A DNA stretch of 64,000 nucleotides from Scytonema tolypothrichoides VB-61278 (GTDB lineage: Bacteria > Cyanobacteriota > Cyanobacteriia > Cyanobacteriales > Nostocaceae), in NCBI RefSeq assembly GCF_000828085.3, contig NZ_JXCA02000019.1, forward strand, positions 392,504 to 456,503. Direction: 5' to 3'. The stretch's first letter is position 1. Each line of letters opens with the position of its first letter. A program made the translations under genes and the position numbers. Of the stretch, positions 7,489 through 32,816 are shown piece by piece. The notes under the pieces are model-generated. The model did not search any database. It was given only the letters and a program-made list of their open reading frames with translations, and had not been told where the DNA came from.

Positions 7489-7511
7489 GTAAGATTTTTG
7501 AAACAATTGAA

Positions 7512-7548
7512 AAGCGATCGCTCAAAAGGAAGTGCGATCGCTTTTTTT
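7512..7548 (+). terminator. Rho-independent terminator of ftsH
   Basis: Arms AGCGATCGC and GCGATCGCT flank a 12-nt loop and are followed by seven T. Both arms are HIP1 octamers, so the terminator is built from two copies of the genome's abundant GCGATCGC motif. Confidence 0.85.
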
Positions 7549-7749
7549 AGCCTAAATTTTCTCACCTGCAACTTGCCTCAAATCACAGTTAACCAGCCAC
7601 AAATGTGTTCAACCGGTTAATTTATATAGATGTTATCCCTGTTAAATATCTGACTGATCTTGGAACGTATTTACTGATAAAAGTATTAATAGGTGATAGA
7701 CCAATCGCCCATTAGGGCGCTGCGCTACAACCAGCAGTCGCAACATTCG

Positions 7750-8213: not shown

Positions 8214-9673
8214 ATGAAAAGGTTCTACATTTTATTTTGTATCTGCTCTGTTTTGTTTTCAATTTTGGCTTTTTCAACTATTTCATCTGCCCAGATTACA
8301 AACCCCATTCCCGCCAAAATTGAAAAATAAAATCTCCGTGTAGGACTCAAAGAAGTTGTGCAAATTCCTATCAGTGGAGCAGGACGCGACAGAGTTGCGC
8401 GATTGAATCTTTTAACCCATGCAGGTGATGGTAGTGGAAGATTATTTGTTAATGATATGCGTGGGAAGCTTTATGTGATTATTAACAACAAAGCTTCTGT
8501 ATATATGGATTTTAAAAAATTAGTTTGCCCAGGTTTTAGCGATGAAACTTCACAACAGGGTTTTTCCTATTTTGCTTTTCACCCAGAGTTTGCTAAAAAT
8601 GGAATTTTTTACACTGCACATAGCGAAGACAAAAATAATCGCATTCCTGATTTTCCAGTCACGAAAACAATTTTTGATAGCAAAGGCAATATTATAGAAA
8701 GTTCTCATCACGAAGTAATTCGTGAGTGGAAAGCTACCAATTCTGCTGCCAATACTTTTTCTGGAACTTTTCGGGAAATTCTTCGTATTGAACAACCCTA
8801 CGCAGATCATAATACAGGGCAATTGAGCTTTAATCCTAATGCTAAACCTGGAAATCCAGATTATGCGATGCTGTATATTGCACTGGCAGATGGTGGGAGC
8901 GATGGCTTTCCTGTCAGCGATACAGATCCTCTAAATAATGGACAAGACCTCAGCACTCCCCTTGGTAAGATACTCCGTATTGACCCTTTTGGCAATAATA
9001 GTACTAATGGCAAATATGGCATTCCCAAAGACAATCCTTTTGTTAAAGATATTAGTCCAAATATTAGTCCAAAAAAACTAGGGGAAATTTGGGCTTATGG
9101 ATTGCGTAACCCCCATCGTTTTAGCTGGGATATGGGTGGCGAAGGCAAAATGTTGATTGTCGATGTTGGTCAAGCTTTTATCGAAGAAGTGAATCTTGGC
9201 GTCAAAGGTGCTAATTACGGATGGGGAAACCGTGAAGGAACTTGGGTTATTGATAAAAAAATGAGAATATTTTGTTTCCATTACCTAAAAATGATGCGGA
9301 TTATGGTTACACATATCCTGTTGCTCAATGTGATCATGACAAACCAGCTGATTGGTCAGGCTATTATGCGGTGGCGATTGCTGGGGGTTATATTTACAGG
9401 GGCAAAGCGATTCCAGAATTAATAGGTCAATATATTTTTGCGGACTTTTGCAATGATGGGCGCTTTTTTCATGTGCCTGTGAATCAACTCGTTAATGGTA
9501 AACAGGCAAAGATAAAAGAACTCAGACTCTTTGACGGCGAACGAGAAACTTCTTTTCTCAAAATCGTTGGCAGTGAACGTTCTGATGTCCGGTTTGGCAT
9601 AGACGAAGCAGGAGAAATCTATGTGACGTCTAAGAGTGATGGTAAAGTAAGAAAACTTGTTCCATCACTATAA
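8214..9673 (+). pseudogene. PQQ-type glucose/sorbosone dehydrogenase, broken by a stop and a frameshift
   Basis: A secreted beta-propeller sugar dehydrogenase (GSDH family). Translation from ATG 8214 gives a signal peptide (KRFYILFCICSVLF ... ISSAQ) and then meets an in-frame TAA at 8328-8330. The same frame continues directly with NLRVGLKEVVQIPISGAGRD and runs to about 9254. Conserved parts include EILRIEQPYADHNTGQLSF and EIWAYGLRNPHRFSWD. At a run of seven A (9255-9261) the reading moves to the next frame and continues NENILFPLPKNDADYGYTYP to the stop at 9671. One extra A would restore the frame. Two independent lesions point to a real pseudogene, although a homopolymer error could explain the second. 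Confidence 0.82.
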
Positions 9674-31372: not shown

Positions 31373-31517
31373 TTCAGTTGTGAGTGATCGGATTCCTATT
31401 TGATTTTTGAAATACACTTAAATTTTTAAAAATAAAACCGGATTGCTATATGAGTTATGAGTTCAAAAAGATTGTCAACTCAAAACTCACAACAAACTGA
31501 AAACTCAAAACTTTTTT

Positions 31518-31883
31518 ATGGAACGCGTTCTCAAAAGTGGACTTGGTTGGCGTATCGGCTGGAACCCAGCAGCGCCAGAGTTCAAAGGTTTGGTGGGTAC
31601 AGATGATTGGGCGATCGAGCTAACTGAAGCTGAATTGAATGATTTTTGTCGGCTACTAACGCAACTAGCAGACACCATCAGGCAAATTGCAACTGAATTA
31701 ATGGATGAGGAAAAGATTAGCTGTGAAGCTGAAAGCGATTTATTATGGATGGAAGTCGAAGGTTATCCTCATGCCTATAGTCTGCGTTTTATCGTGAAAA
31801 CAGGGCGTTGTGCAGAAGGTAAATGGGATGATTCCGCTGTTGGTGGTTTGTTGAAAGCCTCCCAGATGCTCAAAGTTTTTTAA
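31518..31883 (+). CDS. DUF1818 family protein
   Basis: 121 aa acidic soluble protein with ERVLKSGLGWRIGWNPAA and YSLRFIVKTGRCAEGKWDDS, characteristic of DUF1818, a small conserved cyanobacterial family. Function is not established. It ends 52 nt upstream of tRNA-Pro. A tract of CAAAACTCA repeats lies just before the start. Confidence 0.88.
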   Translation: MERVLKSGLGWRIGWNPAAPEFKGLVGTDDWAIELTEAELNDFCRLLTQLADTIRQIATELMDEEKISCEAESDLLWMEVEGYPHAYSLRFIVKTGRCAEGKWDDSAVGGLLKASQMLKVF

Positions 31884-31935
31884 ATCTAGACCTTGATCAC
31901 TGTGGTTTTTGATGTTATACTTGGAAAGTTGACTA

Positions 31936-32009
31936 CGGGGCGTAGCGCAGCTTGGTAGCGCGCCACTTTGGGGTAGTGGAGGTCGTGGGTTCGAATCCCG
32001 CCGCTCCGA
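31936..32009 (+). tRNA. tRNA-Pro (anticodon GGG)
   Basis: 74 nt. The acceptor strand CGGGGCG pairs with CGCTCCG (one G-T pair), followed by discriminator A. The D arm is GCGCAGCTTGGTAGCGC. The anticodon stem CCACT/AGTGG holds the loop TTGGGGT, giving GGG (codon CCC). The T arm GTGGGTTCGAATCCCGC is standard. It is also the target of the CAST guide next to it: the PAM GGTA lies at 31954-31957 and the protospacer at 31958-31974, from the end of the D arm into the anticodon loop. The insertion lies 8 nt beyond the tRNA and leaves it intact. Confidence 0.95.
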
Positions 32010-32017
32010 TTGATAAA

Positions 32018-32139
32018 TGTCGAATAACACATTATTTGTCGTCGTTAACAGATTAATGTCGTTATAAACATATTATCTGTCGTTTTAACAAATTAATGTC
32101 GTCGGGTCACTCCTGACAGCCGTTAACAAATTAATGTCA
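32018..32139. repeat. CAST end proximal to tRNA-Pro, five TnsB-site-like repeats
   Basis: Five copies of an approximately 20-nt motif begin at the terminal TGTCGAATAACACATTATTT. The others are GTTAACAGATTAATGTCG, TAAACATATTATCTGTCG, TTTAACAAATTAATGTCG and GTTAACAAATTAATGTCA. The spacing between copies four and five is larger, and holds CGGGTCACTCCTGACAGC. I cannot tell whether this is the left or right end of the transposon. Confidence 0.8.
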
Positions 32140-32215
32140 CTGACTGAGTTCAGAGTGAGGCATGTGGTTTTGAACTACATGCCTCATTTTAATTTACCTA
32201 TGAAAATTTTGTAAA

Positions 32216-32306
32216 ACTCCAAAGTGGCGCGCCTTTCAACCCTCCAAAAACTTTGAAACTAAATGAGATTCTACAACCCACCCCTAGCCGGAATGGTTGT
32301 TGAAAG
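32216..32306 (-). CRISPR. Delocalized CRISPR unit with tRNA-targeting spacer
   Basis: Read on the minus strand. Degenerate repeat 1 (32306-32270, 37 nt) has CTTTCAACAACCATTCCGGC then TAGGGGTGGGTTG, close to V-K repeats that end GGGTTGAAAG. A 10-nt spacer remnant follows, then the shortened repeat 2 (32259-32233, 27 nt: GTTTCAAAG ... GGAGGGTTGAAAG). The final 17-nt spacer (32232-32216) is GCGCGCCACTTTGGAGT. It matches tRNA-Pro 31958-31974 at 16 of 17 positions; the one mismatch is at position 15. No tracrRNA or cas gene is present. This is the form of guide that V-K CASTs use for homing to tRNA genes. Confidence 0.85.
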
Positions 32307-32631
32307 ATGCGTTGAGCATTCGATCAATGCGTATCAACAGTGATGGCAAAAAGTTATTATCCCAGTAGTTCCGTTTCTCCGGTTTCCCAAGTGGTCGATA
32401 TTTTTGGCAAAATCGTCGGTATTTGGCAGCACATTCAGACAAAGTTCTCCCCAGTTGTAAAAAAGCAGGATGCGATTGGCTAATACCATCATTACTCAAG
32501 CGGTCATGAGTACCATAATTACTAAAATCATAGAAAAACCCTTGCTGCATTTGGGCGGCTTTCGGGTTGGCATGAATGTACCGCAGCGTGTTTAATGCCC
32601 TCTTAATATTCTTGAAAGCAATACAAGTCAA
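32284..32631 (-). pseudogene. REP-associated IS200-like transposase, C-terminal fragment
   Basis: About 115 codons of a Y1-type (REP/RAYT) transposase. The stretch FKNIKRALNTLRYIHANPKA is the family's C-terminal region, and LGRTLSECAAKYRRFCQKYR follows. The HUH motif and the catalytic Tyr part are absent, so it is 5'-truncated. The last residues (RMLNASFNNHSG) and the TAG stop lie inside CRISPR repeat 1, so the original end of the gene was replaced by CAST sequence. Confidence 0.7.
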
Positions 32632-32764
32632 CCTGAATTACTTTTCTCTTGCGATCGCTAAAAAATTTCTCTGGGTACTTTTTCAATTCCACAGACCAAG
32701 CTGCAAATTTCAACAACGCTTTTGACGCTTCGCCATCGTTGCAAATGGTAAAAAACAATTTTGA
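32603..32764 (-). pseudogene. Unidentified C-terminal gene fragment in the mini-CAST
   Basis: An open frame enters from the distal CAST end and reads KLFFTICNDGEASKALLKFA, AWSVELKKYPEKFFSDRKRK, VIQVDLYCFQEY, then stop. It is protein-like but has no start codon and I cannot identify it. It overlaps the transposase fragment by 29 nt in another frame. It is probably the tail of a former cargo or CAST gene left after deletion. Confidence 0.45.
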
Positions 32765-32770
32765 TTAACT

Positions 32771-32816
32771 GGGCGACATTAATTTGTTAAGACGACATTT
32801 AATTAGTTACTCGACA
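32771..32816. repeat. Distal CAST end, two TnsB-site-like repeats
   Basis: On the minus strand from 32816: TGTCGAGTAACTAATTAAAT, GTCGTCTTAACAAATTAATG, TCGCCC. Two full motifs are visible, with a weaker third possible to about 32760. The terminal TGTCGA matches the other end exactly. The ends differ in repeat number, as do the left and right ends of Tn7-like transposons. Confidence 0.8.

Follow-up and report, generated by a model that had tools for sequence, protein, structure and literature searches.

The window, by which we mean the whole 64,000-nucleotide stretch of Scytonema tolypothrichoides VB-61278 DNA analysed here, contains a tRNA-Pro(GGG) gene followed by 799 bases that run from TGTCGA at 32018 to TCGACA at 32816. 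The features that we recognise in and beside these 799 bases are collected in Table 1. Both the left and the right end are present and have TnsB-type repeats, and one 37-nt copy of a V-K repeat is retained. The anchor unit of type V-K elements, a truncated repeat with a 17-nt spacer near the left end, is recognisable together with GGTA and a distance of 60 nt. Judged from the DNA, the surviving pieces appear in V-K order: left end, anchor spacer, truncated repeat, one repeat, tniQ tail and right end.

Table 1. Features at the tRNA-Pro(GGG) gene, with positions in the window, strand and basis of assignment
Feature	Position	Strand	Basis
tRNA-Pro(GGG), attachment-site gene facing the element	31936..32009	+	ARAGORN; Rfam 61.7 bits
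PAM GGTA, fits GTN	31954..31957	+	sequence
Protospacer within the tRNA-Pro gene, GCGCGCCACTTTGGGGT	31958..31974	+	16/17 to anchor spacer
Transposon left end, terminal TGTCGA and TnsB-type repeats	32018..32139	+	repeat analysis; G001 identity
Anchor (homing) spacer, 17 nt, GCGCGCCACTTTGGAGT, mismatch at position 15	32216..32232	-	identical in G001
Truncated repeat R*, 12 nt, GAGGGTTGAAAG	32233..32244	-	precedes many anchors of cas12k loci
Spacer-like stretch, about 25 nt, between R* and full repeat	32245..32269	-	same in G001
Sole remaining V-K CRISPR repeat, 37 nt, 3' end degenerate	32270..32306	-	Rfam CRISPR-DR15 (RF01329), 37.1 bits (cut-off 36 bits)
IS200-type Y1 transposase frame, fragment	32335..32646	-	49-86% protein identity to ORFs of own genome and relatives
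tniQ 3' tail (32760-32713) and DNA downstream of tniQ	32650..32760	-	86% DNA identity to G011 CAST
Transposon right end, terminal TCGACA	32763..32816	.	94% over 47 bases (32770-32816) to G011 V-K CAST

The first-pass annotation had proposed that a guide inside the element targets the tRNA gene beside it, and our results confirm every feature it named, with one refinement of the repeat. Spacer (minus strand, 32232-32216) and tRNA gene match at 16 of 17 bases, and the pair forms inverted repeat I3 (17 nt, 94%). The spacer does follow a repeat end, namely the 12 bases of R*; the four bases preceding the protospacer are GGTA, as claimed for the PAM; and the spacing from PAM to left end is confirmed as 60 bases (31958-32017). 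The reading of 32233-32306 as a repeat holds in part: a repeat is present there, but the stretch is not a single one and consists of R*, the spacer-like stretch and the full repeat. A promoter search for the orphan guide returned 2 promoter-like sites against 2.4 expected from shuffles, that is, nothing above the shuffles.

From the remaining repeat to the right end, we recognise nothing but the Y1 fragment and, with their downstream DNA, the final 16 codons of tniQ. The tniQ tail shares 14 of its last 16 residues with that of the CAST of genome G011 (tblastn, 87.5% over 16 residues, E 2.7e-4). A Pfam search of the Y1 fragment gave no domain match, and a related ORF, L013, is assigned to Y1_Tnp (E 3.8e-19). 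The 115-aa ORF at 32284-32631 was considered as a gene and rejected; it has no Pfam match and is a fragment of the Y1 transposase frame. The element has lost cas12k, tnsB and tnsC as well as the greater part of the array and of tniQ, with the Y1 piece lying in the gap; no trace of tnsB, tnsC or tniQ was detected in it beyond the last 16 TniQ residues.

The missing functions were not found elsewhere in the strain. A search for Cas12k (NF038191, E ≤ 0.001) gave no match in the strain's own genome, whose assembly is 99.97% complete, and the closest TnsB-like matches there are 27-32% identical. In the search for a tracrRNA, the stretch from cas12k to the left end of the related CAST in genome G001 matched only end and first-repeat DNA in the strain's genome. 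On these results, the lack of matches to Cas12k and to the tracrRNA region and of any close TnsB, we reject an active element in the strain, although a diverged tracrRNA or a cas12k below the threshold may have escaped the searches. In strain VB-61278 the guide is a leftover without a detectable effector. Because the element lacks its protein genes, the guide explains a past landing and likely has no present function; it would account for the landing site of the ancestor, and present action of the element is unlikely.

An orthologous insertion is found in Brasilonema angustatum HA4187-MV1 (G001, JAHHGV010000019.1, loci L058/L059; the genome of VB-61278 itself is G000). The alignment of window and G001 spans 804 bases (31502-32305) at 97.6% identity and extends from the upstream neighbour gene of the tRNA as far as the first repeat of the array; the two have in common the upstream gene, the tRNA, the insertion base and the anchor including its mismatch. 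G001 retains a 640-aa cas12k frame and, beside it, an array with six CRISPR-DR15 hits, of which the orthologous one scores 42.3 and the other five 50.8 (Rfam RF01329). The repeat of the window aligns with this array, as the earlier annotation had expected of repeats from related V-K CASTs. The right side of the G001 element is damaged: its TnsB match begins at residue 293 (1-292 missing), TniQ stops at 72, and tnsC is present with an open frame that ends after 229 of 278 residues. A right end was not found in G001, where xisH/xisI border the right flank instead; this flank begins at the same base as that of the window, yet is joined to xisI/xisH. A hairpin with 14-nt arms lies between left end and anchor (window 32156-32186), with one stem mismatch in the window and a perfect stem in G001.

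The tRNA-Pro(GGG) gene is orthologous in all seven genus genomes searched, our strain included. In G004 the left end stands at the same insertion base and the anchor has 3 mismatches; Rfam finds no repeat there, and a search of 14 kb gave no match to TnsB, TnsC or TniQ. The G004 copy is the more decayed one. No left end follows tRNA-Pro in G002, G003, G005 or G006, the G002 locus ending 24 bases past the tRNA. We infer that the insertion occurred once, before the lineages of G000, G001 and G004 split, and would then have decayed differently in each.

To place the guide among related elements, we surveyed cas12k loci. In the family, a cas12k search gave a match in 124 of 192 genomes, 105 of them over the cut-off. 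The survey set comprised 83 stretches downstream of cas12k matches, 80 taken down the score list plus L058, L084 and L092; the 80 leave out one duplicate, two contig-end rows, several partial genes and lower-scoring rows, and include a few partial genes. Anchors were sought as a repeat end followed by 17 bases recurring on the opposite strand within 1.5 kb. They were found in 71, 74 and 75 loci at ≤1, ≤2 and ≤3 mismatches. Reversed, complemented and shuffled controls (83 each) gave 0, 0 and 0 at both ≤1 and ≤2 mismatches, and 5, 8 and 1 at ≤3. No candidate was obtained at 8 of the 83 loci, one of which (L094) is only 815 bases long. GT occupies the PAM positions in 74 of the 75 candidates; the remaining one, L160, is probably a false positive, with 3 mismatches and no left end called. 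The PAM-to-left-end distance, called in 73 of the 75, ranges from 52 to 67 (the farther one being taken wherever two left-end calls were made), which puts the 60 of the window in mid-range. The same place is occupied by an anchor in 74 of the 83 loci, the targets being diverse tRNA genes and, in some cases, other sequences. This placement and the repeat alignment support the earlier proposal that the spacer is the homing guide of a V-K CAST and is directed at the neighbouring tRNA.

Imperfect guides are common in such loci: among 44 distinct spacer-target pairs, 21 are imperfect. With L160 left out, the remaining 20 contain 23 mismatches, 20 at PAM-distal positions 11-15 and nine at position 15 itself. 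Five of these nine concern the tRNA-Ala(CGC) target and involve three different spacer bases. Among anchors for tRNA-Ala, A, G and T all occur at position 15, set against an invariant C; two of the tRNA-Ala anchors are perfect. We do not claim a special peak at position 15, over half of which comes from tRNA-Ala anchors, leaving the cluster at 11-15. As imperfect guides occur at cas12k-bearing loci, a mismatch by itself is no mark of decay. The position-15 mismatch of the window probably predates the decay, because G001, with its open cas12k, carries the same one.

Other V-K-type ends were seen in our strain and its relatives. In its own genome, remains of a second left end lie in L063 near 9175, directly beside tRNA-Pro CGG (9205-9280), and of a third in L064 near 7465, directly beside tRNA-Thr TGT (7496-7567). 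A left-end-like sequence is located directly past the right end of the G011 element (L085), as if belonging to a tandem element. Small elements with V-K-type ends on both sides occur in the same genus (L061:5921-6157 in G004, 237 bp; L086:1338-1553 in G003, 216 bp), neither with a 5-bp duplication. G045, of the same order, holds a 238-bp MITE family (L089:765-1002 and L206-L216) with V-K-type ends, TGTCAGATAACAAATTATTTGTCG and a second site, on both sides. Of its 14 matches, 6 cover 234-238 bases at 84-100% identity to the query; a 5-bp duplication was not seen at the 6 complete copies, and a scan of three complete copies (L089, L186, L191) called no tRNA. G045 has a full-length cas12k, and a nearby end-like sequence (L218) starts with TGTACA, unlike the MITE. 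A palindrome at L004:2873-2910 (contig C6 of our strain) lies between duplicated genomic sequence and resembles two joined sequencing-adapter (Tn5 mosaic) ends; it is likely a library or assembly artefact.

We consider it very probable that the 799 bases beside tRNA-Pro (32018-32816) are what is left, still in its original place, of a type V-K CRISPR-associated transposon (CAST). In the ancestor, by analogy with V-K biology, Cas12k carrying an anchor crRNA composed of the truncated repeat and the 17-nt guide would have bound at GGTA in the tRNA-Pro gene; TniQ, TnsC and TnsB would then have inserted the element some 60 bp downstream, with the left end leading and the tRNA kept whole. Decay in place would afterwards have removed the protein genes, the guide staying behind.

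It is exceedingly improbable that the 17-mer is a duplicated tRNA fragment or a chance repeat, unrelated to a CRISPR guide. Integrases are known to duplicate tRNA fragments, and the match extends through the central part of the tRNA as far as the anticodon loop, but the 17-mer immediately follows the end of a V-K repeat, and both PAM and spacing fit. Copies of such a fragment at many sites, a possibility raised in the first-pass annotation, are not present: when the 17-mers of the 64-kb window were compared with either tRNA strand at ≤2 mismatches, none was found beyond the anchor and its one-base-shifted windows. We reject a chance match on this search and on the controls of the 83 loci (74 of 83 against 0 of 83 in each control at ≤2 mismatches), as had been judged before, and tRNA-fragment duplication on the position and targets of anchors across cas12k loci. 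Insertion of a type V-K CAST produces a 5-bp target-site duplication. None is seen at the element of the window, which has ATAAA on the left and AAACA on the right. The lack of a matching duplication would suit a sub-case of the relic reading in which two neighbouring V-K insertions were merged by a deletion, so that the ends stem from different elements, and tandem V-K ends do occur, as past the G011 right end. We hold this for unlikely, as tniQ tail and right end are both of one type, that of G011, and a single decayed element takes fewer steps. The right side of the element may also have been shuffled.

Cas12k-bearing G001 has its insertion at the same base, with the same left flank and an almost identical left end, as decay in place predicts. 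This speaks against a quite different history, in which the element is a non-autonomous mini-CAST that has two working ends, brings its own homing guide and depends for movement in trans on a complete V-K CAST as the source of Cas12k, tracrRNA, TnsB, TnsC and TniQ. A second copy with the same deletion is absent from the strain's own genome and among the matches listed for 58 relatives, the host has no Cas12k match, and the tniQ tail and Y1 scrap resemble deletion products. Even so, both ends look intact (the right one by its identity to G011, the left one within the stretch nearly identical to G001), the anchor still matches at 16 of 17 bases, and small elements with V-K-type ends on both sides form a multicopy family in a relative. 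We regard a protein-gene-less mini-CAST, in effect a guided MITE that carries its own address between two V-K ends, as very unlikely. If it were true, a full V-K CAST entering the cell could re-mobilise the element to tRNA-Pro(GGG).

As an attachment site, tRNA-Pro(GGG) looks rare. The first-pass annotation had suggested asking whether other V-K CASTs carry the same tRNA-Pro spacer; G001 does, and each of the other 74 candidate anchors of the 83 cas12k loci targets a different site. A spacer matching tRNA-Pro(CGG) is present in 12 of the 75 candidates, and ARAGORN called that tRNA at all nine that were scanned. The exact 23-nt anchor core has one record in GTDB 220 contigs, that of G001, in a set from which the window's own or near genomes may be excluded; among 388 genomes of the order the 23-nt pattern is found only in our strain, with G001 outside the set and the diverged anchor of G004 not expected to match. 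Neither pattern search is a complete census.

The relic provides a natural example of V-K homing at tRNA-Pro(GGG). It indicates that the address label can outlast the machinery, so that relics are recognisable from ends and anchor without any cas gene. The comparison also yields two testable points, the PAM-distal mismatch cluster at 11-15 and the multicopy V-K-ended MITE in a cas12k-bearing relative. The titles and abstract openings searched, together with passages of PMC10293859, contain no report of MITEs derived from V-K ends or of anchor mismatch positions, with Saito 2021 and bioRxiv outside that scope.

Homing of V-K CASTs by anchor spacers has been published (PMC9938897, PMC11406308; Saito et al. 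2021 Cell and Hsieh & Peters 2021 bioRxiv, cited there). According to PMC9938897, a truncated repeat (about 12 nt) is followed by an anchor spacer of 17 nt; the PAM is GTN, and the protospacer usually lies in a tRNA gene that faces the left end, at a PAM-to-left-end distance of 46-82 nt with one exception of 147. The homing mechanism is already known, and the present case is set apart by the state of the element. The window agrees with the published systems in its truncated repeat, spacer length, PAM, tRNA protospacer facing the left end and distance of 60 nt, and differs from them in an element without protein genes save the tniQ tail, with one repeat, and with tRNA-Pro(GGG) as attachment site. 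The V-K CAST of G001 has the insertion base and the anchor with its mismatch in common with the window, but keeps cas12k and array next to damaged tnsC, TnsB and TniQ and shows no right end. The V-K CAST of G011 (L084/L085) is of the same type as the window in left end, right end and tniQ tail; by contrast, it spans about 22 kb with cas12k, tnsB, tnsC, tniQ and both ends, and its anchor is directed at tRNA-Pro(CGG).
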